Below are positions 5,600-46,366 of a DNA stretch of 46,366 nt, one piece after another. Both the position numbers and the translations under genes were made by a program. Position 1 is the stretch's first letter. Each line of letters opens with the position of its first letter. Location: the NCBI GenBank assembly GCA_020725805.1, contig DYEF01000069.1, positions 1 through 46,366 on the forward strand, read 5' to 3'. Source of the DNA: Bdellovibrio sp. (GTDB taxonomy: Bacteria > Myxococcota > SpSt-1050). The notes beneath the pieces were generated by a model. That model ran no database searches and was not told where the DNA came from. It saw nothing but the letters and a program-made list of their open reading frames with translations.

Positions 5600-7294
5600 A
5601 TGTTCAGGCTGAAAATTACAGGTCAGGGGAGCGAAAAGATTCAGGAATTCAACAAGCAGACAATATTCATAGGGAGGTCTCAGGATAACGACCTGATACT
5701 CCCAGTTCCGAGCGTAAGCAAGAGACACGCGCGTTTGCTGATAAAGGACGGCCGCTATGTAATTATGGACCTTGGAAGTACGAACGGCACATTCGTCAAC
5801 GGCAAACAGATAAACGGACCTGTGGTAGTAAAACCAAATGACATCATAAATATCGGCGAATACGAACTAACCCTTCTGAGCGGGGCACCAAAACCTGTAA
5901 CCGCAGAGATAAAGCAGAAGACACCGCCGCCTCCTCCTCCGCCCCAGAATCAGCCGGCACCAAAGGCCACAAGACCACCCTCTCCTCAGGTGACACAGAG
6001 GCCGTCGGCGAGAAACCAGAATCAGGAAATTATATCGGCATTCAAGAGAGAGGTTCATTCGAGGCTCATCGAGGCTATGGACCTGAGACGTCTTGATATA
6101 AGCAAGCTGGGAGAGAGCGAACTTTATGAACGGACGAGGGAGAAGATAACAGAGATAGTAGAGCATCTTCAGTCAGAAGGTCAGTTCCCCGCCGGAGCAG
6201 ACAAGGCACAGATAATCTCGGAGATAGTGGATGAGGCACTTGGTCTCGGACCTCTCGAGGAATTTATTGCCGACAAATCTGTAACAGAGATAATGGTAAA
6301 CGGTGCACGGCAGATCTATATAGAACGTGAAGGCAAACTCTATCTGACTGACAAGACCTTCTCGTCGGACCACGCAGTAATGGGGGCAATAGAGAGAATC
6401 ATTGCACCGCTCGGAAGACGAATAGACGAATCGAGCCCGCTCGTCGATGCAAGGCTGAAGGACGGTTCCCGAGTAAACGCCATTATACCACCGCTTGCAA
6501 TAAAAGGCCCGACAATCACCATCAGAAAGTTCAGAAAAGATAAACTGACTATGGACGACCTCATCAGGTCAAACACCATAAGTGCAGAGATGGTGGAATT
6601 TCTGAAGGTCTGTGTCTTCTACCGCAAGAACATCCTCATATCAGGAGGTACCGGCTCCGGTAAGACCACGACCCTAAACGCACTGAGCGAATTCATATCG
6701 AACGACGAACGTATCATCACCGTTGAAGATGCGGCAGAACTTCAGCTCAAACAGGAGCACTGGGTTCAGCTCGAATCCCGTCCTCCCAATATAGAAGGAA
6801 AGGGACAGATTACGATAAGAGACCTCGTCAGAAACTGCCTCAGAATGAGACCCGACCGCATAATCGTCGGTGAGTGCCGTGGCGGAGAGGCCCTCGATAT
6901 GCTTCAGGCAATGAACACGGGACACGACGGTTCTCTCACGACCGTTCACGCCAATTCCCCGCGAGATGCCTTATCAAGGCTAGAGACGATGGTTCTTATG
7001 GCAGGGATTGAACTGCCGGTCAAGGCAATCAGGGAGCAGGTCTCGTCTGCAATAAATATAATTCTTCACCAGTCCCGTTTCTCCGACGGTTCAAGGAAGG
7101 TGACTCACATATCCGAGATAACCGGGATGGAAGGAGATATAATAACCATGCAGGACATCTTTGTTTTCAGGCAGCAGGGCTACGATGAAAACGGTAAGGT
7201 GCTCGGCGAGTTCGTGCCGACGGGATTTATTCCCAAATTCTACGATGAACTGAGACAGAGAGGAATCGAACTGGACCTCTCCATATTCAAGTAA
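5600..7294 (+). CDS. cpaF: FHA-domain CpaF/TadA-type secretion ATPase
   Basis: A 564-aa fusion. Residues 1-95 form an FHA phosphothreonine-binding domain (GRS at 25-27, SVSKRH at 38-43, GSTNGTFVNG at 59-68). A proline-rich linker spans about 108-137. The rest is a CpaF/TadA hexameric ATPase: Walker A GGTGSGKT (349-356), Walker B with catalytic acid RIIVGECRGGE (420-430) and the His box GHDGSLTTVHAN (441-452). CpaF enzymes power Tad pilus or secretion machines at the inner membrane, and the secretin partner is directly upstream. The FHA domain suggests that the motor responds to Ser/Thr phosphorylation of itself or a partner. No Ser/Thr kinase gene and no TadB/TadC platform gene is present in the window. 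Confidence 0.92.
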   Translation: MFRLKITGQGSEKIQEFNKQTIFIGRSQDNDLILPVPSVSKRHARLLIKDGRYVIMDLGSTNGTFVNGKQINGPVVVKPNDIINIGEYELTLLSGAPKPVTAEIKQKTPPPPPPPQNQPAPKATRPPSPQVTQRPSARNQNQEIISAFKREVHSRLIEAMDLRRLDISKLGESELYERTREKITEIVEHLQSEGQFPAGADKAQIISEIVDEALGLGPLEEFIADKSVTEIMVNGARQIYIEREGKLYLTDKTFSSDHAVMGAIERIIAPLGRRIDESSPLVDARLKDGSRVNAIIPPLAIKGPTITIRKFRKDKLTMDDLIRSNTISAEMVEFLKVCVFYRKNILISGGTGSGKTTTLNALSEFISNDERIITVEDAAELQLKQEHWVQLESRPPNIEGKGQITIRDLVRNCLRMRPDRIIVGECRGGEALDMLQAMNTGHDGSLTTVHANSPRDALSRLETMVLMAGIELPVKAIREQVSSAINIILHQSRFSDGSRKVTHISEITGMEGDIITMQDIFVFRQQGYDENGKVLGEFVPTGFIPKFYDELRQRGIELDLSIFK

Positions 7295-7314: not shown

Positions 7315-9264
7315 ATGGAAGAATTACTGGTTACATACCCTGACGGAAGTCACAAGAAGTTTTCTCTCTCAAAAGGAGAACTCCTCATCGGCAGAGACTC
7401 CGATAATGATGTGGTTCTGGCTTCTCCTGCCGTCTCCAGAAGACACGCCCGCATCTATATGTGGGATTCGCAGGTCTTTATAGAAGACCTTGGAAGTTCA
7501 AACGGTATCTACGTGCAGAGCAAAAGGATAAACGAGGCAGCACTGGTCAAGCCGGGCGAACCCATACACATAGGTGAATTCACCCTCAATGTAATATATT
7601 CGGACGAAGAGGAGACGGAGGAAAAACCTCCCAGATTCTATCTCAAAGGCAGGATGCCGCCGTTCAAGAATGAAGTCATTCCCCTCGAAGAAGACGAGAT
7701 ATTTGTAGGAAGAGTAGACGAAAACCATCTTGTCATTACACACAACTCGATATCACGCAGACATTCGGTAATCAAGATCGATACGAGTCAGGAAATCGTA
7801 AAGATTTCGGACCTCGAATCCTCGAACGGGACATTCGTTGACGGCAAACGGATAAAGGATGCCATTCTTCAGAACGGTAATATTGTAAGGTTCGGCGACG
7901 TGGAATTCGAATTTATCGACACACAGGCACCAAAGACAAAGGTCAAGAAGGATGTAAGCCTCGGTGGTCTGAAATTCTCAAAAAATATGATAATCCTCGT
8001 GACCGCCGTATTTGCCCTTCTCTTCATACTCGTAATTGCAGGCTCACTCAAGAAGAGGGCAAATCAGAAGAAGATGATATCCGCGACAAACAGTACCGAA
8101 CAGACACAGAAGGCCTCCAGCACTGAGACCAGACTGAGTGAACTCGCAGAGAAGATAAGACAGAATATAGAAAAGGGAGACCTTTCATCGGCAAAACTAT
8201 ATCTCAAAGAACTTCTGGACCTCGACCCTATCAATGAAGAAGGTCTGAAAATAAAAGGCAAACTGGAAAACGAGACCAGATATAAGGACATGCTGGAATC
8301 GGGTGATATGAAATATTCCATCGGGAGACTTGATGAGGCAAAGGAAATTCTCTCCAAAATCCCGTCAGATTCGATCTTCTTCGAAAGCGCCTCCCAGAAA
8401 CTCAAAGACATCAATACAAAACTCTTTTCCCAGACTTTCTCTGATATGCTCAAGGCCAAGAGACAGAAGAAATATAAAGAGGCCTACGAAATGATTCCCA
8501 AACTTGCGAAAATCAACCCTTCTTCATCCGACCTCATAAGTGAAATGCGTGAACTCGAGAGAATAATGAAACAGAAGAAGATCAAGTTTACGCCTATAGA
8601 CCTTTCACAATATGTCGAGAAGGGCTCGCAGTCAGGCACACTCAAAAAGGACCCGTTCACTCTGATAAATCCTATGTACAACGACGAAGAGATAACAAGG
8701 GCAATAGTATATTATTACATTGGCAAACCCGACAACGCCCTTCTGGAACTCTCCAAACTTCTGAAGAAGAAGGAATACCTGAAACAGAAGGACCGCATAG
8801 AGGAGATTCAGTTAAGGATATTCAAGATAAAGGGCAAGTACAGGGAGGGACAGAGTGCAATGTTGCAGGGAGACATCAGACAGGCAGACAATGCATTCAA
8901 GGAAGTGCTCGAAAACGATACCAAGATTGTCCCCTCTGACCCGCCATCGGCATTCAGGGAAGATATAGAGAAGCAGCTCATTGATGTCTATCTGAAAATC
9001 GGCTACCAGAATTATGACAAGGGGCTTTATGAAGAGGCATTTACCTCCTTTCTCTCTGCATACAGGATAAATCAGAAACACCCCGATGTCCTCAAGGCAT
9101 TCACAAAACTTGAAAAAGTGGCACAGGAGGAATACGAAAATATTGTTCTGAACAAGTCCGATGTCCAGAGCACCGTCAAGAGACTGAATTTTATCAAAGC
9201 AATAACACTTCCATCCTCGGATATTTACAGACTTGCCGATGAAAAACTCAGGTCACTTAAATAG
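7315..9264 (+). CDS. Membrane protein with two FHA domains and TPR-like repeats
   Basis: A 649-aa protein with two N-terminal FHA domains (about 1-95: GRDSDNDVVL, SRRHAR, GSSNG; and about 108-200: GRVDENHLV, SRRHSV, ESSNGTFVDG). One membrane span follows at about 225-245, then a long helical region (250-649) with TPR-like spacing, including YYIGKPDNALLELSKLL and GYQNYDKGLYEEAFTSFLSA. With cytosolic FHA domains the repeats would be periplasmic. It lies 20 bp after the FHA-CpaF ATPase and was probably made to work with it, tying phospho-signalling to the envelope apparatus. The FHA calls are firm. The TPR assignment is from helix and aromatic spacing by eye, and the exact function is unknown. 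Confidence 0.85.
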   Translation: MEELLVTYPDGSHKKFSLSKGELLIGRDSDNDVVLASPAVSRRHARIYMWDSQVFIEDLGSSNGIYVQSKRINEAALVKPGEPIHIGEFTLNVIYSDEEETEEKPPRFYLKGRMPPFKNEVIPLEEDEIFVGRVDENHLVITHNSISRRHSVIKIDTSQEIVKISDLESSNGTFVDGKRIKDAILQNGNIVRFGDVEFEFIDTQAPKTKVKKDVSLGGLKFSKNMIILVTAVFALLFILVIAGSLKKRANQKKMISATNSTEQTQKASSTETRLSELAEKIRQNIEKGDLSSAKLYLKELLDLDPINEEGLKIKGKLENETRYKDMLESGDMKYSIGRLDEAKEILSKIPSDSIFFESASQKLKDINTKLFSQTFSDMLKAKRQKKYKEAYEMIPKLAKINPSSSDLISEMRELERIMKQKKIKFTPIDLSQYVEKGSQSGTLKKDPFTLINPMYNDEEITRAIVYYYIGKPDNALLELSKLLKKKEYLKQKDRIEEIQLRIFKIKGKYREGQSAMLQGDIRQADNAFKEVLENDTKIVPSDPPSAFREDIEKQLIDVYLKIGYQNYDKGLYEEAFTSFLSAYRINQKHPDVLKAFTKLEKVAQEEYENIVLNKSDVQSTVKRLNFIKAITLPSSDIYRLADEKLRSLK

Positions 9265-31330: not shown

Positions 31331-32494
31331 TTATGAAAACCATAAACCATAAATCAGCCCGGTTATTGTTGAGAAAAGGATTACAAGCAGTACATAGGCG
31401 GTTGTCTTTTTCGGACCGAGCACACTATTAATAACGAGCATATTGGGTAAAGAGAGGGCCGGTCCGGAGAGGAGGAGTGCAAGAGCAGGCCCCTTCCCCA
31501 TTCCCGAGCCAAGAAGCCCCTGAACAATAGGTACCTCGGTCAGTGTAGCAAAATACATAAATGCCCCGACAACAGATGCAAAGAGATTGGCAAATACAGA
31601 ATTCCCTCCTACGAGAAATTTTACATACTCCGACGGAATGACTCCCTCGTTTCCCGGCCTTCCAAGCAAAAAGCCTGCGGCAAAGACCCCTGCAAAGAGA
31701 AGCGGAAAGATTATTTTTGCATATTCGAAGGAAGATTCCGCCCAGCTCTTAAGTTCATCTCCTGAAAACCACCTTATAATAATTACACCCAGAACGACGA
31801 AAAGGAAGGCACTGATATACCATTTCACCGAATAAATGAGATTGTAGAAGGTGTTCTCCTCATCTTTACCCCAGTTCATAAATACCAGCAGCCCAATGAT
31901 TACAGCAAAAAAGACAACATCTGTAATAAGACTCCTCTTCGACTCTTCACCCTGAAAATTCTCGATATCTGAAAGCCTCTCTGTATCCTCCTTTCTGAAA
32001 AGCAGCGCCATAATAATGCCTATGATTACCGAAAAGAGGACAGAGCCCAAGGCCCTTGCAAGTCCAAGTTCGAACCCCAGAACTCTTGCAGTCAGAATTA
32101 TTGCGAGGACATTAATTGCGGGTCCCGAATACAGAAATGCTATAGCCGGTCCCAGTCCTGCACCCCTCTTGTATATCCCTGCAAAGAGCGGCAGAACCGT
32201 ACACGAGCATACAGCAAGAATAGAGCCGGAGACAGAGGCAACTCCGTATGCAAGTACCCTGTTTGCCTTTGCACCGAGATACCTCATAACCGAATTCTGT
32301 GAGACAAAGACGGAGATCGCCCCCGCGATAAAAAATGCCGGTATCAGGCACAAAATCACATGTTCCCTTGCATACCACTTTGTAAGCGCAAAGGCCTCGA
32401 TTACGGCATTCTGAAAACGCAGACTTTCAACAGGCAGAAACCAGAAGAATAAAAAGACCATAAGAAAAATCAGAAATATCTTTCTGTTACTCAA
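31331..32494 (-). CDS. ArsP/YraQ-like permease (DUF318)
   Basis: A 387-aa protein with about ten membrane spans and the two repeated family signatures: SGSILAVCSCTVLPLFAGIY followed by GPAIAFLYSGPAINVL, and later GKGPALALLLSGPALSLPNM. The family includes ArsP, an efflux permease for trivalent organoarsenicals, and its place as last gene of an ars operon supports that role. The start codon is TTG, and it overlaps the TGA stop of the upstream arsenate reductase gene, so translation is coupled. A generic two-membrane permease with another metal or thiol substrate is the alternative. Confidence 0.85.
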   Translation of the reverse strand: MSNRKIFLIFLMVFLFFWFLPVESLRFQNAVIEAFALTKWYAREHVILCLIPAFFIAGAISVFVSQNSVMRYLGAKANRVLAYGVASVSGSILAVCSCTVLPLFAGIYKRGAGLGPAIAFLYSGPAINVLAIILTARVLGFELGLARALGSVLFSVIIGIIMALLFRKEDTERLSDIENFQGEESKRSLITDVVFFAVIIGLLVFMNWGKDEENTFYNLIYSVKWYISAFLFVVLGVIIIRWFSGDELKSWAESSFEYAKIIFPLLFAGVFAAGFLLGRPGNEGVIPSEYVKFLVGGNSVFANLFASVVGAFMYFATLTEVPIVQGLLGSGMGKGPALALLLSGPALSLPNMLVINSVLGPKKTTAYVLLVILFSTITGLIYGLWFS

Positions 32495-33180
32495 ACCTCA
32501 TCCCTCCTGAATATCAGGGATATCCTCTTTATCAGTTCATCCCGCGTCTTTCTGAAGGCATCGAGCCTCTTTCCTGCATCGACCTCGGACGATGGGTCTG
32601 AAAGTCCCCAGTGAAGCCTTATTGCCTTCCCCAAAAAGACCGGACAGACCTCTTCTGCACACAGAGTGATAACGGCATCGATACCCTTTGAGTCTATATC
32701 CTGAACAGATTTCGAATACAGACCAGCAGTATTTATCCCGATTTCTGATAAAACCTTTAAGACTTCGCTCTTCACACCACCCGGATTCGAACCGGCAGAC
32801 AAGATTTCCACATCAGAAGGGGCAAGGTGTCTGGCTATCCCTTCCGCCAGAATAGAACGGGCGGAATTATGGACACACATAAAGAGAATCTTCTTTGGTT
32901 TAGCTGCCCTCAGAAATGCCGCCTCGACCATATAACGGGGCGGAAACTGATTATCCTGTTCGTATATTCTCTGTTTGCCACTCACTCTCCGTCCGGAAGC
33001 AGGCTCAATATCCTCTCCGTCTATAAGTACTGCCGGCGAACCAGATAGCGTCTTGATATCATTGGTTTTTACAACTGTTATCTGTTCATTTATTCCGAAT
33101 ACAGATTTAACCTCTTCAATTAGCTTCTTTGTCTCCTCAAAACCGCTGCATTCCTCTGAATATATCAGCTCAATTCTCAT
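32491..33180 (-). CDS. arsC: Thioredoxin-like / arsenate reductase (ArsC) fusion
   Basis: A 229-aa two-domain protein. Residues 1-90 look like a small thioredoxin-fold domain with a single Cys11 in YSEECSGF and a cis-Pro-like SPAVLIDGE (48-56). Residues 96-229 are a low-molecular-weight-phosphatase-type ArsC: P-loop CVHNSARS (Cys102 to Arg108) and the redox pair Cys174/Cys179 in LCAEEVCPVF, with a WGLSDPS segment carrying the general acid. It should reduce arsenate to arsenite for export by ACR3, 5 bp upstream. The fused domain may recycle the ArsC disulfide, though a lone Cys makes an ordinary dithiol mechanism doubtful. Confidence 0.88.
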   Translation of the reverse strand: MRIELIYSEECSGFEETKKLIEEVKSVFGINEQITVVKTNDIKTLSGSPAVLIDGEDIEPASGRRVSGKQRIYEQDNQFPPRYMVEAAFLRAAKPKKILFMCVHNSARSILAEGIARHLAPSDVEILSAGSNPGGVKSEVLKVLSEIGINTAGLYSKSVQDIDSKGIDAVITLCAEEVCPVFLGKAIRLHWGLSDPSSEVDAGKRLDAFRKTRDELIKRISLIFRRDEV

Positions 33181-33185
33181 AGATT

Positions 33186-34250
33186 TTAAACTACTTTCCC
33201 CCTGAAATATTTATCCCTGAAAAACAAGGATAGTTTTACAAGTGCAAGCAGCACAGGCACCTCTACAAGAGGACCAATTACTGTTGCAAATGCCTCTCTG
33301 GATGTTATTCCGAATATTGCAATGGCAACCGCAATTGCAAGCTCGAAATCATTGCTCGCCGCTGTAAGAGATACCGTTGTAACCTGAGGATAAGGTGCAC
33401 CCGCCTTCTTCGCAGTAAAAAAAGTAATAAGAAACATAATCACGAAGTAAAGAGTCAGAGGGATAGCAACTCTTAAAACATCAAGCGGAATTTTGAGAAT
33501 ATATTCGCCCTTTAGTGAAAACATTACAACAATAGTAAACAGAAGCGCCACCAGCGTGACAAAGGAAATCTTTGGTATGAATTTACTGTGATACCACTCT
33601 TTATCTCTTATTTTTATCAGGGTATACCGGGTAATTATGCCCAATAGAAAAGGTATCCCGAGATAAATAAATACGGTCTTCGCTATATCACCGATAGTAA
33701 CATCTACAACAGTCCCCTGAAAACCAAACACAGGCAATAAAAATGTCAGGAAGATATAACCATATACCGAGTAGAGCAGAACCTGAAATATTGCATTAAA
33801 GGCCACAAGCCCTGCAGCATACTCCGAATCTCCCTCTGCAAGATGATTCCAGACGAGCACCATTGCAATGCAGCGTGCGAGTCCCACAAGAATAATTCCC
33901 ACCATATAGCCTGTCTGGTCCGGAAGAAGTAATATGGCAAGAGAAAACATAACAAGCGGACCTATAATCCAGTTCATAATCAGAGATAAAACAAGTATCC
34001 GGATATTCCCGAATACTTTAGGCAGTTCCTCATACTTTACCCTTGCAAGGGGCGGATACATCATCAGAATAAGACCAATGGCTATGGGAATATTAGTCGT
34101 CCCGATACTCATCCTGTCAAGAAGCACGGCAACTGAAGGATAGAGATATCCTGTAAAAACCCCGGTTATCATTGCCAGCAAGATCCAGAGCGTCAGATAT
34201 CTGTCCAGAAAAGATAGTCTGGCAGTAATGCCCTTATTCTCCTGTGACAT
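33186..34250 (-). CDS. acr3: ACR3-family arsenite efflux permease
   Basis: A 354-aa inner-membrane carrier with ten predicted spans. The conserved transport Cys lies in [16 protein letters not shown] (Cys127), with the second signature near the C-terminus ([19 protein letters not shown], then [13 protein letters not shown]). ACR3 proteins export arsenite driven by the proton gradient. Its position between the small thioredoxin and the arsenate reductase gives a complete arsenate-to-efflux route. Confidence 0.96.
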
Positions 34251-37836: not shown

Positions 37837-38015
37837 AGAAATATCTCCGGTTGGATTATTTTTAATTGGAAATGAGGTTTTAGTCAATCAGGATTTTTCA
37901 TCGGCAAAAATTATTCTGTCATAACATCTGAACCATTAAAACGGAAATTTATCTGCAAAACCATCTGAAGCAGAAAATCGTTTGAAATTAAATCCAAAAA
38001 TGTTAGGATTAATCT

Positions 38016-39617
38016 GTGACTTATAGATATCTTATAGCAGAAAACCGGAATAACACCTGTTCTGTTCAACTGAATCTTGCATATTACTCCTTATATCGCG
38101 GTGAATTTATCAAAGATATCAGAAAACTGGCTGCCAAAGACCGGTTGATTATTGTTGAAAATGTCTTTCTTGCAAATAAGACATCAGAGAACAATAAGAA
38201 TATTGATATAAAGACATTGCTGTTATTCCTTTCAGACCTATTTTCAATAATGAACAGATACCCACAGAGTCTGTCGATCGGAAGCAAGGCAATAAAATTA
38301 ACTCCTCTAAGTAAAGACAGAATTTCGTCAGAGACTCTGATAAACGCACTGAAACTGATTAAGCTGGCAGATAAAACCGATTTATCAATCCAAAGACAGG
38401 AGCAGGGCGTTGAGAAAGCGGGTCAGAAAGATCCAGAATCCTGCAGTGAGCATATCAGCCAGTCATACCTTGATGCCGAGTATGAACTGATGCAAAAGGG
38501 ATACCGTCGTGCAGGGAAATACGAGTGCAACAGCTATGAAGAGGCAAAAGCTATTAATAAGGTAATGAAAAAAACCTTTCCCTATACACAAATCACAATA
38601 AGCAGGGAAAATCAGATTGACATATACTATTCCCTGCATAAAGAGTACCTCGATAAAATTACAAATTCGGACAATGTATTGTCTGATGAACACATAAAAA
38701 ATTCAGGCTGGCTCTTCGGTTATCCCGAATGCTGTACCAAAGAATATCTGAAAAGCGGATTTCAGTACCTCCCGTCATTTCCCTACAAATGGCTGATCAG
38801 AAGATATCAGACCAGAGGAGAAATTGATCCCCTCTTTAATCCGTTCCTTTCCAATCTCTATTATTTTCCCTGTCATCTGAGATGCAATGAGACACTCAGA
38901 AGACTCAGAATCATCGGCAAGCATATCATTTCCAGAGAGAAATCAGACTTATTATATATGCCGGTTATATTCTTTCTGCCAGAGTCATTAAACCCGTCAA
39001 CGGTCAGAGGCAGTGCAGGTAATATGGAATATGTGCTCATAAATCCTGTATCTGAGAAAGGGGATACAATAAAATACAAACCCGTAGATTACGGCATAAA
39101 AACGGAGAAGACAGAAATTATCAGAAGAGGAGATTCACTTACCTTAAAAGACGGCGTTATGGCAATCAGCAGGGGAGATAAAGTCATTCACAGATTCTCA
39201 CTCGAAGCCGGTATATGGTACTATAAAAAGACTTTCGATAATGATTTCTTTAATATTTTCATCAGATTGCTGCTGAGCGCGGTTAAATACAGACCGGTTA
39301 CAATCAAAAAAGATATTTTTGATGAAGATTTCATTAAGATAAAGAGCTGCCTGCAAAATAACACAGCCATATTCCGGAAGTATAATATAACTATTAACCA
39401 TATAAATATATACAATAACGAAATTACTATTGATATAAAGTTCGGGCGCACAATGAGCAGAAGAGTAATTCTGGCAGTTCAGAGAGCATCGCCGTATTCG
39501 AAATATTTCGTAAGAGGGAAAAAATATATAATCAGTGTCAAGGAATGCAATAACAATACAGAGAATAATGTTCTTTATCCATTATCCTCACTCATACTCA
39601 ACCTGATCGAGAACTGA
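38016..39617 (+). CDS. DUF483-like protein with paired-Cys motif, function unknown
   Basis: A 533-aa protein without signal peptide or membrane spans. The recognisable part is GWLFGYPECCTKEYL (231-245) followed some 45 residues later by YYFPCHLRCNETL (282-294), giving Cys239, Cys240, Cys286 and Cys290, the arrangement I associate with DUF483-type proteins (GYPxCC ... PCxxxC). These four Cys may bind a metal or cofactor. The flanking 230 N-terminal and 240 C-terminal residues match nothing I know. The start is GTG (38016) after AGGAT. Codon use is markedly more A- and T-ending than in neighbours, suggesting transfer or low expression. It stands alone between divergent and downstream genes. Confidence 0.6.
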   Translation: MTYRYLIAENRNNTCSVQLNLAYYSLYRGEFIKDIRKLAAKDRLIIVENVFLANKTSENNKNIDIKTLLLFLSDLFSIMNRYPQSLSIGSKAIKLTPLSKDRISSETLINALKLIKLADKTDLSIQRQEQGVEKAGQKDPESCSEHISQSYLDAEYELMQKGYRRAGKYECNSYEEAKAINKVMKKTFPYTQITISRENQIDIYYSLHKEYLDKITNSDNVLSDEHIKNSGWLFGYPECCTKEYLKSGFQYLPSFPYKWLIRRYQTRGEIDPLFNPFLSNLYYFPCHLRCNETLRRLRIIGKHIISREKSDLLYMPVIFFLPESLNPSTVRGSAGNMEYVLINPVSEKGDTIKYKPVDYGIKTEKTEIIRRGDSLTLKDGVMAISRGDKVIHRFSLEAGIWYYKKTFDNDFFNIFIRLLLSAVKYRPVTIKKDIFDEDFIKIKSCLQNNTAIFRKYNITINHINIYNNEITIDIKFGRTMSRRVILAVQRASPYSKYFVRGKKYIISVKECNNNTENNVLYPLSSLILNLIEN

Positions 39618-39695: not shown

Positions 39696-40976
39696 ATGAA
39701 AAGCAGAAAATCTCTATGTATTTATTTATTTTTCCTTTCACTGTTTGTCCTTTTGGCATCAGAGGGATATGCCGGTCTTTACGAGGAGCTCCAGAAGGAG
39801 GAGATCTACTGGATTCCTCCGCTCAGACCCCCAAAACCCGAACCTGACAATCTGTATGAGAGGATACTCACACCCGACCCGGAGGCTACACTTACCAAAC
39901 TCTATGACGCCAGATTCGAACCGTATATGCTGATAAGGACTTCATTTTCATATACCGAAGAAGACGAATACGAGGTCAGTCTGGAAGACGGAAGAAAACT
40001 CAAACTCAATTCTGCCAATATGGACACCTCCCAGTTCGGACACAAATTCGGACCTGCCCTCGAAAGCGTTGAGATGGGAATGCGCGGCAGATACCAGAGC
40101 AGCGGTTTTCACTATCATATAAAGATGGAACTCGTCCCGAGAGAGAAAGACGGCAACAGGTCGTCGGATTACCTCAAGGATGCCTATGTCGGATGGGACA
40201 AATACACTGTCTTTTCAGTCGATGCTGGCAGAATGAAGGTCCCGTTCTCTCAGGCAAATATGAAATCCACGGATAAAAACAACCTGATATATGCGCCGGT
40301 TCTGGATATCCTTTCATCGAAGAGACAGGTCGGATACAAGTTTGCCCTTCAGGACCCGTGGAGAATGCTAAGATTCACCTACGGGATATTTACCTCGATA
40401 TCATTTGCATCAGAACTCATCAAGCAGAGCGAAGAACTGCTTTATACATACAGGCTCGATATTCAGGGATACAACATCCTTAAAACCTTCAATCTCTTAT
40501 ACAGGGACCTCAGTTTCAATATCGGCCTGAATGCTGCAAAGACGGACAAGAGTTACGACACCCAGTCCGAGGTGCTCTATCTGGGAGCCGACTTCAATCT
40601 TCATCTCTTCCTCTTTACCCTCGAAGGCGAGTATGTAATCAAGAACTTCTATCAGCCCCCGCTGCCTGACGGAACCGCAAAGGCCGACAAGGGCTGGGGA
40701 TGGCATATCGACCTGATAACCCATATATGGCCCAATATCATCGACCTTATTGTCAGAATCGAAGAGATGGACGGAGATGAGGTCATCAGAGGTCAGAGTT
40801 CCGACCTTTCGATCGGAGAGATGTCGAAGCAGAAGAAACACGGGACTACTTTTGGAATAACCGCACATCTCTCAAATCAAGTAAAGTTACAACTAAACTA
40901 TATCCAGAGGGGAGAACTCGAGGGATACAGATTCGACAACAATGTATTTATCGGACTTGTTCAGTTCAATTATTAA
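39696..40976 (+). CDS. OprO/OprP-like outer-membrane porin
   Basis: A 426-aa protein with a signal peptide (to about EGYA, residue 25), a Pro-rich N-terminal segment (WIPPLRPPKPEPDNL) and then barrel strands of a phosphate-selective-porin type, for example DAYVGWDKYTVFSVDAGRMKVPFSQ and the end VFIGLVQFNY with terminal aromatic. It ends 14 bp before a metallophosphoesterase lipoprotein gene, so the pair may take up phosphate released at the cell surface. The porin family is judged from the GRMKVPFS motif and layout; the substrate is inference. Confidence 0.75.
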   Translation: MKSRKSLCIYLFFLSLFVLLASEGYAGLYEELQKEEIYWIPPLRPPKPEPDNLYERILTPDPEATLTKLYDARFEPYMLIRTSFSYTEEDEYEVSLEDGRKLKLNSANMDTSQFGHKFGPALESVEMGMRGRYQSSGFHYHIKMELVPREKDGNRSSDYLKDAYVGWDKYTVFSVDAGRMKVPFSQANMKSTDKNNLIYAPVLDILSSKRQVGYKFALQDPWRMLRFTYGIFTSISFASELIKQSEELLYTYRLDIQGYNILKTFNLLYRDLSFNIGLNAAKTDKSYDTQSEVLYLGADFNLHLFLFTLEGEYVIKNFYQPPLPDGTAKADKGWGWHIDLITHIWPNIIDLIVRIEEMDGDEVIRGQSSDLSIGEMSKQKKHGTTFGITAHLSNQVKLQLNYIQRGELEGYRFDNNVFIGLVQFNY

Positions 40977-42509: not shown

Positions 42510-42941
42510 CTAAAGATTATTCTTATCTATTTCTCTACTTTTTTCCTCTCCTCCACCTACCCCTTCCTTACACTGAACCTCTTCCTCTCTAATTTCGTAT
42601 ATCAAATAAATAAGAGGAAAAATAAAAACTGATGTTAACCCATAAATAAATATATTCTTTCTGCATTTATACGCCAGTACGCTTCCAACAGGTATAAGAA
42701 ACATCCCAAGCATTACTAGCGTATAAACCAGATATTCATATCTACCGCCACTAAAAGTATTAAGTAAGTTCTTATTAAACATAAAACTAAATCTCAAAAA
42801 CTCATAGAATGAGGGATTACCGCCAATCATTCTTGTATAATTTATAAATCCCAGAGTTTGCCCTACAATTACAAACAGGATAAATGGAATAAGATCTTTT
42901 AAGATTCTAAAAAATATTTCTTTATTCCTTATCGAGATCAT
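42510..42941 (-). CDS. Four-span membrane protein, putative immunity protein of Rhs tip 3
   Basis: About 143 aa from the ATG at 42941 (an in-frame ATG at 42998 would overlap the previous gene by 77 bp). Hydrophobic segments lie at about 13-33, 65-80, 85-102 and 106-120, and the C-terminus is polar and charged. No family recognised. It is the second gene after the array's third Rhs tip, and its start overlaps the zinc-ribbon gene's end by 20 bp. AT-rich codon use as in the whole array. Immunity or accessory role is inferred from position only. Confidence 0.6.
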   Translation of the reverse strand: MISIRNKEIFFRILKDLIPFILFVIVGQTLGFINYTRMIGGNPSFYEFLRFSFMFNKNLLNTFSGGRYEYLVYTLVMLGMFLIPVGSVLAYKCRKNIFIYGLTSVFIFPLIYLIYEIREEEVQCKEGVGGGEEKSREIDKNNL

Positions 42942-43269
42942 ATCCACATACCCCACATTTCTTGGATATTTGAAAATTTGTCGGGAACACATAATCAAAT
43001 CCTAAAAATTTCACTTTAGTATAACCTATCAATCTTTTTTTACACTTTGGACACCTCAGCCCTTTCTCCTTAAATTTAGGCGGTAAAAAATATTCCATAG
43101 TATAGTAGGAAGAAATGAAGATACCCAAAACAATTGCAACATATAAGAAGAAATATTCTTCTATAACCGGAATATTGTTAAAAACTAAAAAAAGAATTAT
43201 AAGTGTAACAACTAACCATAAAGGAAAAATTGCAAATTCTTTAATAATGCTTCTTTTCCATAATGTCAT
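42922..43269 (-). CDS. Two-span membrane protein with C-terminal zinc ribbon
   Basis: A 115-aa protein with two membrane spans (about 13-30 and 40-58) and a C-terminal zinc-ribbon pattern RCPKCKKR ... KKCGVCGYDL (two CxxC pairs about 29 residues apart). It begins 17 bp after the stop of Rhs tip 3, the position normally held by the immunity gene. No named family recognised; the ribbon is reminiscent of small regulators or structural zinc sites. Confidence 0.65.
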   Translation of the reverse strand: MTLWKRSIIKEFAIFPLWLVVTLIILFLVFNNIPVIEEYFFLYVAIVLGIFISSYYTMEYFLPPKFKEKGLRCPKCKKRLIGYTKVKFLGFDYVFPTNFQISKKCGVCGYDLDKE

Positions 43270-43286
43270 AGCAAATATTTATTCCC

Positions 43287-43898
43287 TCACTTGAAAAAAT
43301 TAATAATATCCTCAACTGTCAATATTGTCTCCGTATATGAAGCACCAGAAGATGCACCAAAGCCTAATCCTTTTGACCCAGCCACTGTGAAACCTTTATC
43401 ACTACCCACGCCTAAGGTTACAGATGCCCCACTGAAGATAAAAGGCGGAAAATTAATATCAAAATTTTCGCTAAATCCCTCAATATCCTTTGTACAAAGC
43501 CCACCACCCCATCCGATACCTATATTCAGTCCACCGGCTAATGATGCCGTCCTGAAAATACCTGATTCAAAAGGATGGTCTGTATCAATAACCAACCCCA
43601 AAGCACCCTCTGCCCCCAAGAAAGGCACAAAATCAAATTCAAAGAACACAAATATATCTACTAGCCCCAGAGGATCAACTTTATTCACCCCATTATTATT
43701 CACATACATATAAGGATGCAGGAGACTGGGGTCTGCAAAATGAAATCTTTTTGCCTTTCCTTTTGCTATCATATCACTGTATAACGGATCAGGTTGTATA
43801 TACCTCTTTAATATTGTATTGTAAAACCGATTAACATTATACCTTCCTGCACTCACTTTTACTAGGACCAAATACATTAAGCCAAAGACAATCTCCAT
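43287..43898 (-). CDS. Rhs C-terminal tip 3 (core remnant plus variable region)
   Basis: A 203-aa orphan Rhs tip. Residues 16-79 are the conserved core (SAGRYNVNRFYNTILKRY, QPDPLYSDMIA, ADPSLLHPYMYVNNN, ending VNKVDPLGL). The 124 residues beyond the core are Gly-rich and strand-like (GGLNIGIGWGGGL, GASVTLGVGSDKGFTVAG) with no nuclease or protease motif that I can see. The upstream Rhs repeats and an export sequence are absent: the frame opens only 20 bp after the previous gene stop, and the first 15 residues do not match the other copies. The product may be a stored toxin domain that needs recombination into a full-length rhs gene to be delivered. Confidence 0.75.
   Translation of the reverse strand: MEIVFGLMYLVLVKVSAGRYNVNRFYNTILKRYIQPDPLYSDMIAKGKAKRFHFADPSLLHPYMYVNNNGVNKVDPLGLVDIFVFFEFDFVPFLGAEGALGLVIDTDHPFESGIFRTASLAGGLNIGIGWGGGLCTKDIEGFSENFDINFPPFIFSGASVTLGVGSDKGFTVAGSKGLGFGASSGASYTETILTVEDIINFFK
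43662..43853 (-). repeat. Rhs core repeat, copy 3
   Basis: DNA coding the shared Rhs core. The stretch 43691-43739 (49 bases) is identical to 46318-46366 in copy 1, while the DPLGL end diverges from both other copies. Confidence 0.85.
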
Positions 43899-43918
43899 CC
43901 ATTAATACTAGTATTTAT

Positions 43919-44242
43919 TCATTTCCTGTCCTTAACAATGTAAGAAAGTATCAAATAGGCATACAAATTTCCGTAAAAACATATTATTGCCCATATAAAT
44001 GGATTCCTACCTTTTTCCCTTGCCTTGAAAAATCCTAAAACACCGAATAGTGTTAGGCCACCAGATAGAAATACCGGAACAACTAAACGAACAATTAGTG
44101 GTTTTGTTAATTTGGCACCGTTTGATAACTCTATAATTGCAGATCTCAAAATTTTTGAAGATTCAATATAAACAAACAATATCAAATATATTGCTATCGT
44201 TAATACTAATGCTATTGCAATCTTTTTAACAATCGCTCTCAT
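43919..44242 (-). CDS. Three-span membrane protein, second gene after Rhs tip 2
   Basis: A 107-aa protein with three hydrophobic segments (about 8-27, 48-68, 82-100). Its C-terminal half, GFFKAREKGRNPFIWAIICF, parallels GYIKAKKKGYNPWLWFLICI in the 78-aa protein 2 bp upstream, so the two are diverged paralogues. Both follow a Rhs tip, in the place where immunity genes lie. Function beyond that is unknown. Confidence 0.65.
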   Translation of the reverse strand: MRAIVKKIAIALVLTIAIYLILFVYIESSKILRSAIIELSNGAKLTKPLIVRLVVPVFLSGGLTLFGVLGFFKAREKGRNPFIWAIICFYGNLYAYLILSYIVKDRK

Positions 44243-44244
44243 TC

Positions 44245-44481
44245 TTATTTATCCACAATTTTATTTTCCTGTTTTTCAGGAATGTAATATAACAACAAAC
44301 AAGCCATCCAATTACCAAATATACAAATTAAAAACCAAAGCCATGGATTATAACCTTTTTTCTTTGCTTTTATGTAACCATAAATGCCAAAAGGAAATGT
44401 GCCAATCAGCAGCAGAGAAATAACCTGAATAACAGTTATAAAATTAGCATACTCAAAAAAGCTACAAAGTGCGTTCATCAC
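44245..44481 (-). CDS. Two-span membrane protein, first gene after Rhs tip 2
   Basis: A 78-aa protein with two hydrophobic segments (about 15-35 and 47-66) around a basic loop, KAKKKGYNPW. It starts 10 bp after the Rhs tip stop and 2 bp before its paralogue. Candidate immunity protein against a membrane-active toxin, by position and topology. Confidence 0.65.
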   Translation of the reverse strand: MMNALCSFFEYANFITVIQVISLLLIGTFPFGIYGYIKAKKKGYNPWLWFLICIFGNWMACLLLYYIPEKQENKIVDK

Positions 44482-44491
44482 TTTTTATCTC

Positions 44492-45025
44492 CTATCTCTG
44501 ATTACTTGAGGTATAATTAATATAAAACGGGAATAAACTCCAACCAAGCCCGATGTGAGCAGAAAATCCAAACTTCTCCATCATCCCAGACCAATGAGGT
44601 TTAGAAAAAAATACACCAGCCGCAAGAAATCTACTATAACCAACTCCAAATTCAACTGATGCTTCATCTTCATCAGGCAAAAAGCCTATACTTATATCCA
44701 AACAAGCTCCTACACTAGGCGTCGAAGATAATATTTTATAATTACTAACAACACCTCCTCCTTCAACCAGAAATTGATATGAAAATGAAACAGATAAATA
44801 AGTCCGAGGATCCCACCAATCTCCTTTTGCAAGTCCCTCAGGGTCTATCCAATTCACCGCATTATTATTTACATACATATAGGGATGCAAGAGATTTGGG
44901 TCTGCAAAATGAAATCTATTAGCCTTTCTCATTGCTATCATATCACTATACAACGGATCTGGCTGCATATATCTCTTTAACTCACGATTATAAAATCTGT
45001 TTACATTATATATTCCTGCACTCAT
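44492..45025 (-). CDS. Rhs C-terminal tip 2 (core remnant plus variable region)
   Basis: A 177-aa tip starting at an ATG inside the Rhs core (SAGIYNVNRFYNRELKRYM to NAVNWIDPEGL, residues 2-65). The reading frame stays open for a further 57 codons upstream to 45196 and encodes more Rhs-like sequence (GYKVSRYEYQNINSQEINL, then RAPGQVE), with no start codon, so the ancestral protein was longer. The variable part (112 aa) is aromatic and strand-like (YLSVSFSYQFLVEGGG, ASVEFGVGYSRFLAAGVFF, GFSAHIGLGWSLFPFYINY), reminiscent of short barrel or pore strands. No catalytic motif seen. Translation from 45025 would need the weak AGGTAGAG just upstream. Confidence 0.72.
   Translation of the reverse strand: MSAGIYNVNRFYNRELKRYMQPDPLYSDMIAMRKANRFHFADPNLLHPYMYVNNNAVNWIDPEGLAKGDWWDPRTYLSVSFSYQFLVEGGGVVSNYKILSSTPSVGACLDISIGFLPDEDEASVEFGVGYSRFLAAGVFFSKPHWSGMMEKFGFSAHIGLGWSLFPFYINYTSSNQR
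44831..45022 (-). repeat. Rhs core repeat, copy 2
   Basis: Shared Rhs core DNA. The stretch 44830-44869 (40 bases) is identical to 46288-46327 in copy 1, whereas the adjoining bases differ from copies 1 and 3 at several sites. Confidence 0.85.
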
Positions 45026-45196
45026 CTCTACCTGCCCGGGTGCCCTTATTGGCAGATTTATCTCCTGACTATTAATATTCTGATACTCATACCTACTTAC
45101 CTTATATCCATAACTACTACCACTATAATCCGAACCACAACAAACTTCAAGTGAAACAAAACGCTGGAAATATACAACAAATTTCTTTATAAATCC

Positions 45197-45482
45197 TTAA
45201 TAAGCAAAATTAAAATGTTAACAGTGTTTTATTTTCATTATTCTTTTTATTCCCAGAATATATAAAAAAATGAGTTCTTCATTGATTTTTCTTTTGTATC
45301 TTATGTACACTTTTCGACCTCTTTATCAATATTAAACCTTTCCATAGATACCTCTACCTTAAATTTCTTATACCCTTACACAATATCACTGCTTCTATTT
45401 ATATAATAATTTTATCAAATTACTTATCCTCCTATATCCCTTAACATAAAATAGATAGATGTATAAAAACTAAAAGTATCTA
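45197..45482. other. AT-rich spacer within the Rhs array
   Basis: 286 bases with no gene that I can support, between the stop that bounds the open core frame of tip 2 and the end of the HEIGHH-protein gene. Very AT-rich. Minus-strand fragments such as KKFKVEVSMERFN end after about 24 codons and may be debris of an earlier cassette. Confidence 0.5.
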
Positions 45483-45995
45483 TTACGTCTTAATTGGCTG
45501 CTTGTCTTTCCTTGAATAAAAATATAGAGCCAGTTTTACCAATGGATAAAATGGAATTAATAAAATCCCCCAAAGCAAAAATGCTTTTTTTAACAGCTTC
45601 TCTTTATATTTCTCCGCAAAATCCTCTTCATAGTCTCTCTTTATCCCGTGAGTTGAAAATTGACAATGATGTCCTATTTCATGATATAAAACCCCTGCAA
45701 TTAAAATATCTGGTATAAATGGAAGATAAAACAATAAGCGGGGCATTCCTTTGTAAATATCTCCTACAGCAATCATAATCTTTGCCAATCCTCCCCCCTT
45801 TTTTGGAATATAAATCCCCCCTCTTACTTTATTCATTTTGTTATCTCTCGATGATGTATATACTCTATCAACCAATACAATCGTTCCTATTCCAACAAGA
45901 TCCTTCTCTGGAACTTTTAATAAAAGTCTTTTAATTAATCTTTCTAATGATATGGGGAAGTTTTCCTTATACTCTTTCTTAATTATAATATCCAT
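45483..45995 (-). CDS. HEIGHH metallopeptidase-like membrane protein after Rhs tip 1
   Basis: A 170-aa protein with a zincin motif YHEIGHH (His105, Glu106, His109) and, about 15-20 residues on, an acidic helix DYEEDFAEKY that could give the third zinc ligand (Glu124 or Glu128). One or two hydrophobic segments flank it: about 86-103 (LLFYLPFIPDILIAGVLY) and 138-160. It starts 5 bp after the Rhs tip 1 stop. It may be an effector, a processing protease or an immunity protein; the order in the array favours a partner of the tip. No named family recognised. Confidence 0.65.
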   Translation of the reverse strand: MDIIIKKEYKENFPISLERLIKRLLLKVPEKDLVGIGTIVLVDRVYTSSRDNKMNKVRGGIYIPKKGGGLAKIMIAVGDIYKGMPRLLFYLPFIPDILIAGVLYHEIGHHCQFSTHGIKRDYEEDFAEKYKEKLLKKAFLLWGILLIPFYPLVKLALYFYSRKDKQPIKT

Positions 45996-46000
45996 TTTGC

Positions 46001-46366
46001 TTATGCTCTAAATGGATCAAATATTATATCTGACTCATTCTCGGTTGAGATAAAAATTGAACCAAATCCAAGTGACCTAAGCAAAGACGCAATATTTTTT
46101 AAAAGATTTTTCAACAATTCATTCTCTATTAAGGGTCCTTTAGGTGGCCAAGGTTCTATACTAGCTTTAGGGAAAGAAGGAGTCTGCTTAGGCAGACACT
46201 GCGGAGTATATCTTTGACTGGGGGCAAGTCTATTAACACCAGCATAAGGTCTGAAGAAAAAAGGGAGCCTTCCAAAAAGAAATATCTCAAGTCCCTCAGG
46301 GTCTATCCAATTCACCGCATTATTATTCACATACATATAAGGATGCAGGAGACTGGGGTCTGCAAA
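46001..46366 (-). CDS. Rhs C-terminal tip 1, partial at window edge
   Basis: Open at the right edge, so the 5' part is missing. The visible 121 codons begin FADPSLLHPYMYVNNNAVNW then IDPEGL, the end of the Rhs core, followed by a 95-aa variable region. That region has a Pro-rich middle (PKQTPSFPKASIEPWPPKGP) and an amphipathic helix (ENELLKNLLKNIASLLRSLG). No known toxin motif. This may be the tip of a full-length rhs gene or a further orphan tip; the window cannot tell. Confidence 0.75.
   Translation of the reverse strand, partial: FADPSLLHPYMYVNNNAVNWIDPEGLEIFLFGRLPFFFRPYAGVNRLAPSQRYTPQCLPKQTPSFPKASIEPWPPKGPLIENELLKNLLKNIASLLRSLGFGSIFISTENESDIIFDPFRA
46289..46366 (-). repeat. Rhs core repeat, copy 1 (partial)
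   Basis: Shared Rhs core DNA truncated by the window edge. Its left part equals copy 2 and its right part equals copy 3 without mismatch, with the switch inside CATTATTATT (46318-46327). Confidence 0.85.

Follow-up and report, generated by a model that had tools for sequence, protein, structure and literature searches.

A gene of Bdellovibrio sp. (GenBank assembly GCA_020725805.1, contig DYEF01000069.1) raises the question of what a protein with a GYPxCC and CxxxC cysteine motif does when it is encoded on its own. We analysed a stretch of 46,366 nucleotides that contains this gene, hereafter the window. The motif is that of DUF483 (PF04467), on which very little is published: a whole-word literature search returned a single paper, a 2024 study of Thermus phages (PMC11437467); PF04467 as a term was in no paper of the literature searched. 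According to that study, the phages phiMa and Cumys carry a module of a radical SAM protein, a DUF483 protein encoded beside it and a third protein, for which DNA modification is proposed, and fusions of DUF483 with radical SAM or methyltransferase domains are noted (PMC11437467). That DUF483 is linked to radical SAM enzymes is therefore already in the literature. The window gene differs from the phiMa and Cumys genes in that no radical SAM gene adjoins it, and a tblastn search with its product found no match in 50,697 phage records.

Results

A 533-residue reading frame with low GC content

Translation bore out the reading frame of 533 amino acids reported by an earlier note on this DNA. It starts with GTG and has an in-frame TAA at 38010. 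The features to which we refer throughout are as follows:

38005 to 38008, forward strand: AGGA, a possible ribosome-binding site 7 nt 5' of the GTG, read from the sequence
38016 to 39617, forward strand: the 533-aa protein, a stand-alone DUF483-type module preceded by a short N-terminal remnant, from the reading frame, its translation and its relatives
38097 to 38390, forward strand: residues 28-125, probably left over from a radical SAM-like domain (its C-terminal half), from hhalign to columns 276-383 of alignment A5
38448 to 38762, forward strand: residues 145-249, predicted alpha/beta subdomain with a 2guk-like fold that ends in the GYPECC helix, from the domain model
38718 to 38735, forward strand: GYPECC, residues 235-240, with Cys239 and Cys240
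38868 to 38885, forward strand: PCHLRC, residues 285-290, with Cys286 and Cys290
38952 to 39614, forward strand: residues 313-533, beta-rich and alpha/beta C-terminal part, from alignments A1 and A2 and the secondary structure of the model

The gene had also been called AT-rich with codon use unlike its neighbours. The first part stands, as its GC content of 0.376 is the lowest of 26 ORFs that were compared in the part left of 42.4 kb. The second is weak because the codon-usage deviation of the gene (z = 4.8) is exceeded by that of 5600-7294 (6.0) and nearly equalled by those of 7315-9264 (4.7) and the next gene, 39696-40976 (4.4); its GC3 of 0.418 is likewise not the lowest, being undercut in 33186-34250 (0.407). 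With a z value that is not singular among the window ORFs, we rejected odd codon use as sole evidence. Searches of the window for tRNAs and Rfam families returned none of either.

A divergent relative of DUF483

The only Pfam match in the window protein is a weak one to DUF483, with 17.7 bits over residues 222-296 against a gathering cut-off of 25 bits. Relatives in the same alignment score 22.7-31.7 bits in single-protein scans, and the GYPxCC and CxxxC core of DUF483 members is present in the window protein when it is aligned with 27 others. The resemblance to DUF483 that had been noticed by eye was thus confirmed, at a score below threshold. The window protein differs from DUF483 in having about 220 extra C-terminal residues, which its close relatives have too. 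Judged by its sequence, it is a divergent relative of DUF483 that falls outside the family by Pfam's own cut-off.

It is not the orphan that it had been taken for. A protein search of 58 related genomes gave matches in 5, the window's own genome among them, and a search with profile A2, a six-row alignment of the module that begins at residue 150, found relatives in 15 of the 195 genomes searched from the phylum. Matches at E < 1e-40 occur in six of the 195 (G000, G001, G034, G014, G044 and G189), and the window's genome (G000) carries two of them, the window gene and a paralogue on contig C107. Pfam DUF483 itself matches 11 of the 195 genomes, 9 of them above the cut-off, and one of 14 control genomes, that of Methanocaldococcus jannaschii. 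The relatives are distant: the nearest is only 26% identical to the window protein, and the paralogue from the same genome is equally far removed. In a tree of eight module sequences, which has long branches, the window protein groups with that of the congener G001 (88/91), then with its own paralogue (87/88) and then with G034 (100/100). Of the 18 residues that do not vary among the five other module sequences, it keeps 15. Further, an NCBIfam search with the window protein gave one chance match, a sequence search of solved structures gave nothing of use, PHROGs gave no match below E 0.01, and viral contigs held no relative.

Four conserved cysteines

The window protein has nine cysteines (15, 143, 171, 239, 240, 286, 290, 445 and 511), and the four that had been singled out lie exactly at 239, 240, 286 and 290. 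In alignment A7, which holds 28 homologues from bacteria and archaea, Cys239, Cys240 and Cys290 are kept in 28 of 28 sequences and Cys286 in 27, and the conservation of the first motif half is partly selected for since the queries contain GYPxCC: the ten loci L043-L052 were found by short peptide patterns that include it, and the other A7 loci with a protein or with profiles containing it. The CxxxC half is absent from the peptide patterns used to find L043-L052. We left L042 out of this alignment, as its match spans profile positions 319-384 only and not the cysteines, and also L036, which duplicates the L006 locus. Few other residues are invariant, namely Gly235 and Pro237, with Tyr236 nearly so. 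Neither positions 16, 142 and 171 nor the remaining cysteine columns show a conserved cysteine in the alignments examined. The idea of a metal or cofactor site, put forward in the earlier note, survives because the four cysteines are conserved among homologues; that they hold a metal, we infer.

The invariance of the adjacent pair Cys239-Cys240 in all 28 sequences would also suit a thiol redox or peptide-binding module, in which a vicinal disulfide or thiolate acts on a substrate and no metal is held. We consider this improbable, given that Cys286 and Cys290 are about equally conserved and so favor a four-ligand site over a thiol pair. The sole exception at Cys286 is a histidine in one Desulfurococcales archaeon. 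Histidine is a common ligand in zinc sites, and this substitution, together with four cysteines among few other invariant residues, speaks for a zinc site that folds a structural or nucleic-acid-binding domain with no redox role. The DNA modification suggested for the phage module points the same way (PMC11437467). We return to the zinc site below, where the genes beside the relatives are described.

Module architecture and predicted structure

One conserved module extends from about residue 150 to residue 533, and its residues 313-533 are common to close relatives (alignments A1 and A2). The full-length model has a mean pLDDT of 65.8 and a pTM of 0.52; pLDDT falls below 50 in residues 1-30 and 105-145, and the N-terminus is modelled at low confidence; a model of residues 138-335 reaches a pLDDT of 76.0 and a pTM of 0.71. 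For residues 145-249 the best fold match is 2guk_A, a conserved Porphyromonas gingivalis protein of unknown function with a chain of 111 residues (Z 7.7, rmsd 3.5, 103 aligned; next best Z 5.6), and the full model gives Z 6.8 for the same match. With Z under 8, this likeness between model and structure may reflect a common arrangement only. 2guk may belong to DUF3793 and carry a GYP motif of a related kind; a search for DUF3793 gave no match in the 58 genomes or the 14 controls, and the literature offered nothing useful on this point. Foldseek searches of both models against the PDB, and of the domain model against a viral library, gave nothing under E 0.001. No known Fe-S fold was among the matches of the fold searches, which excludes nothing.

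Relatives are fused to or adjoin radical SAM-like domains

In the long proteins of G034, G044, G014, G189, L045 (an Anaeromyxobacter contig) and L046 (an Oligoflexales contig), which are 865 to 977 aa in length, the module forms the C-terminal part and an atypical radical SAM-like domain the N-terminal part. The G001 protein shows the same fusion up to the end of its contig, where it runs off within the radical SAM-like domain. The paralogue in the window's own genome (C107) is split, with a 396-aa radical SAM-like ORF and a 387-aa DUF483 ORF that overlap by 4 bp. In alignment A5, eight rows of the radical SAM-like part, Cys123, Gly148, Cys149, Phe151 and Cys152 are invariant (L006 numbering), so that the pattern is one cysteine, about 25 residues and then GCxFC, with all three cysteines in 8 of 8 rows. 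Pfam Radical_SAM matches only one of the eight members (E 0.036). The A5 profile matches OxsB (5ul2), the B12-dependent radical SAM enzyme of oxetanocin biosynthesis, with E 1.9e-5 over the second motif half and the strands that follow. This likeness belongs to the radical SAM-like part of the fusions; the window protein, unlike OxsB, is without the cysteine half of that domain.

A radical SAM domain is fused to or adjoins the DUF483 gene in 11 of the 16 loci whose neighbors were read (L002, L003, L006, L010, L011, L026, L028, L039, L045, L046 and L052), a count in which L028 and L039 come from the same genome. The five loci with neither are the window, L047, L048, L049 and L050; at L049 a MoaA-like gene lies several genes away. 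The aligned loci L027, L029-L035, L037, L038, L040 and L041 stand outside this count, and L051 was dropped from it and from the alignments because its ORF is unclear. Fe-S sites are usual in radical SAM enzymes, and the fusion or adjacency in 11 of 16 loci tells against the zinc site introduced above, which we regard as rather unlikely.

Several observations were made around these loci. On the two Archaeoglobales contigs L047 (2845-3657) and L049 (9668-10498), the DUF483 gene lies just downstream of two genes that are presumably sulfite-reductase-like, with no adjacent radical SAM gene. In the congener G001, a run of genes (L008, 3421-17665) that by eye are mostly of radical SAM type, several with a B12-type layout, ends in an HxsC-like gene and the DUF483 gene. 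HxsC is the His-Xaa-Ser system maturase, and HxsC-like proteins missed the curated TIGR03977 cut-off of 267.9 bits both in a G001 neighbor (L002:261-1499, 85.6 bits) and in the window's own genome on contig C83 (L059:7027-7956, 91.7 bits). A second copy at L046, 5597-8089, is frame-broken, keeps GYPECC and is without the cysteine half of the radical SAM part, a loss that parallels the window case.

A probable radical SAM remnant at the N-terminus

The N-terminal flank of the window protein appears to carry a trace of the same domain. Residues 28-125 match columns 276-383 of A5 in collinear order with an hhalign score of 26.7 (E 0.0053, probability only 6.8). In controls, 300 shuffles scored 23.5 at most, and 69 pieces taken from other window proteins scored no more than 22.7. 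A genome-wide search with the same radical SAM profile reported C107 and not the window. Judging from the hhalign alignment, residues 28-125 probably derive from a radical SAM domain and are what is left of its second half. The cysteine half is absent, and neither CxxxCxxC nor the interrupted form of the fused relatives occurs among the nine cysteines of the protein. The frame has no upstream extension because the stop at 38010 closes it, and in an alignment with fused relatives the cobalamin-binding-like N-terminal domain has no counterpart in the window protein beyond scattered residues. The flanks, which the earlier note could not assign, are therefore partly assignable now, with residues 28-125 radical SAM-like, 145-249 2guk-like and 313-533 part of the conserved module.

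Relative to the same three fused proteins, the remnant keeps 15 of 37 invariant columns and the module 27 of 55, so that the remnant, where it remains, is not clearly more decayed than the module. Because the G034 protein is fused and that of G001 carries the radical SAM part to its contig end, the simplest reading is that the radical SAM half was lost in the window lineage.

A gene at broken synteny

In the window the gene lies between a Tim44-like gene on its left and a porin gene on its right, with a phosphatase gene also nearby and no adjoining radical SAM gene. The G001 counterparts of the Tim44-like protein (71% identity) and the porin (90%) lie on different contigs, C70 and C50; on C50 the porin and phosphatase genes are adjacent with no DUF483 gene beside them, and none stands beside the Tim44-like gene on C70. 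A functional link to the downstream porin and phosphatase was rejected since the G001 pair stands without a DUF483 gene, and a role with that pair seems unlikely because the window gene sits where synteny with G001 breaks.

This position bears on the most exposed rival explanation, namely that the gene is a duplicate in decay, a truncated radical SAM-DUF483 paralogue whose frame is still open and which has little or no function. Broken synteny would fit, as would the lost N-terminal part, the partner gene missing next door and an identity of 26% to the nearest relative against 71% and 90% for the flanking genes with the congener. However, 533 codons are free of stops, all four cysteines and 15 of the 18 invariant residues are retained, and the paralogue in the same genome has diverged just as far, so that rapid evolution may be usual in this case. 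We regard decay as unlikely.

Two other parts of the window are recorded here. At 31331-34250, genes for an ArsP_1 permease, a protein of the low-molecular-weight phosphatase family and an SBF transporter stand side by side (Pfam assignments), presumably a set of the arsenic-resistance type. The low-GC window end (42510-46366) holds three partial copies of a core end that we take to be Rhs-type (43287-43898, 44492-45025 and 46001-46366), each with a common stretch ending in HPYMYVNNN.VN.IDP.GL and a different tip, with small ORFs between them. Pfam found no match in four of the ORFs of this stretch, which on its sequence resembles a series of orphan Rhs tips that may be toxin/immunity pairs.

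Nitrogenase-like genes in genomes with the fused form

Downstream of the fused gene at L046 come a NifH-like ORF (Pfam Fer4_NifH, 270.7 bits), two ORFs of nitrogenase component-1 type and a gene whose product has two stretches of radical SAM type. The layout over L046, 5597-17727, comprises tandem genes of radical SAM-DUF483 type, the first of them as two ORFs, then the NifH-like gene, the component-1 pair and the double radical SAM gene. The NifD-like protein of L046 has matches at E < 1e-30 in 11 of the 195 genomes, including all six with strong DUF483 modules, a co-occurrence with a hypergeometric probability of about 6e-9 when kinship, which matters here, is ignored. The fused gene and nitrogenase-like genes lie within about 15 kb of each other in three of the six genomes (G189, G044 and G034) and on separate contigs in G000, G001 and G014. 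On contig C23 of G014 a radical SAM paralogue adjoins a NifH-like gene, and the window's own genome has NifH-like (C85), NifD/K-like (C47) and HxsC-like (C83, C91) genes on other contigs. The association is not a strict one, as genomes such as G002, G005, G020 and G030 have the NifD-like gene and no strong DUF483 match. The titles and abstracts searched, with subscription literature mostly outside them, mention no connection between the fused genes and nitrogenase-like ones.

These genes suggest a more far-reaching reading, in which both the radical SAM-DUF483 proteins and the stand-alone form derived from them would belong to an undescribed nitrogenase-like system. The fused protein would build or modify the metal cofactor or the substrate of the nitrogenase-like enzyme, like NifB for nitrogenase, and the window protein would be a carrier or scaffold with a cluster on its four cysteines. 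We consider this highly improbable.

Discussion

The explanation we favor, tentatively and from sequence comparisons, is that the window gene encodes a stand-alone, four-cysteine DUF483-type protein that derived or split from a B12-type radical SAM-DUF483 fusion and serves as a trans subunit for a radical SAM enzyme. We favor it because relatives are fused or adjacent to radical SAM domains in 11 of 16 loci, the cysteines are conserved, residues 28-125 give a remnant signal and 15 of 18 invariant residues are kept. Against it are the lack of an adjoining radical SAM gene, the weakness of the remnant signal and the existence of some DUF483 loci without radical SAM.

In such a scheme the window protein would have arisen by truncation of the fusion or by splitting from it. 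It would carry out no radical chemistry by itself because it is without the SAM-cluster-binding half of the radical SAM domain. Many radical SAM accessory domains contain auxiliary Fe-S clusters, and the four conserved cysteines most likely ligate a metal, probably as an auxiliary [4Fe-4S] cluster. We hypothesize that the protein acts in trans as the substrate-holding or electron-relay subunit of a radical SAM enzyme, for which the best candidate, as a guess, would be the stand-alone radical SAM-like protein encoded beside the second DUF483 protein on C107.

These data tie the four-cysteine DUF483 core to radical SAM enzymes across bacteria and archaea and, in several genomes, further to nitrogenase-like genes. 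They raise the questions of whether the stand-alone form binds a cluster and which enzyme it serves. This form would leave the four-cysteine domain open to study without the large radical SAM enzyme.
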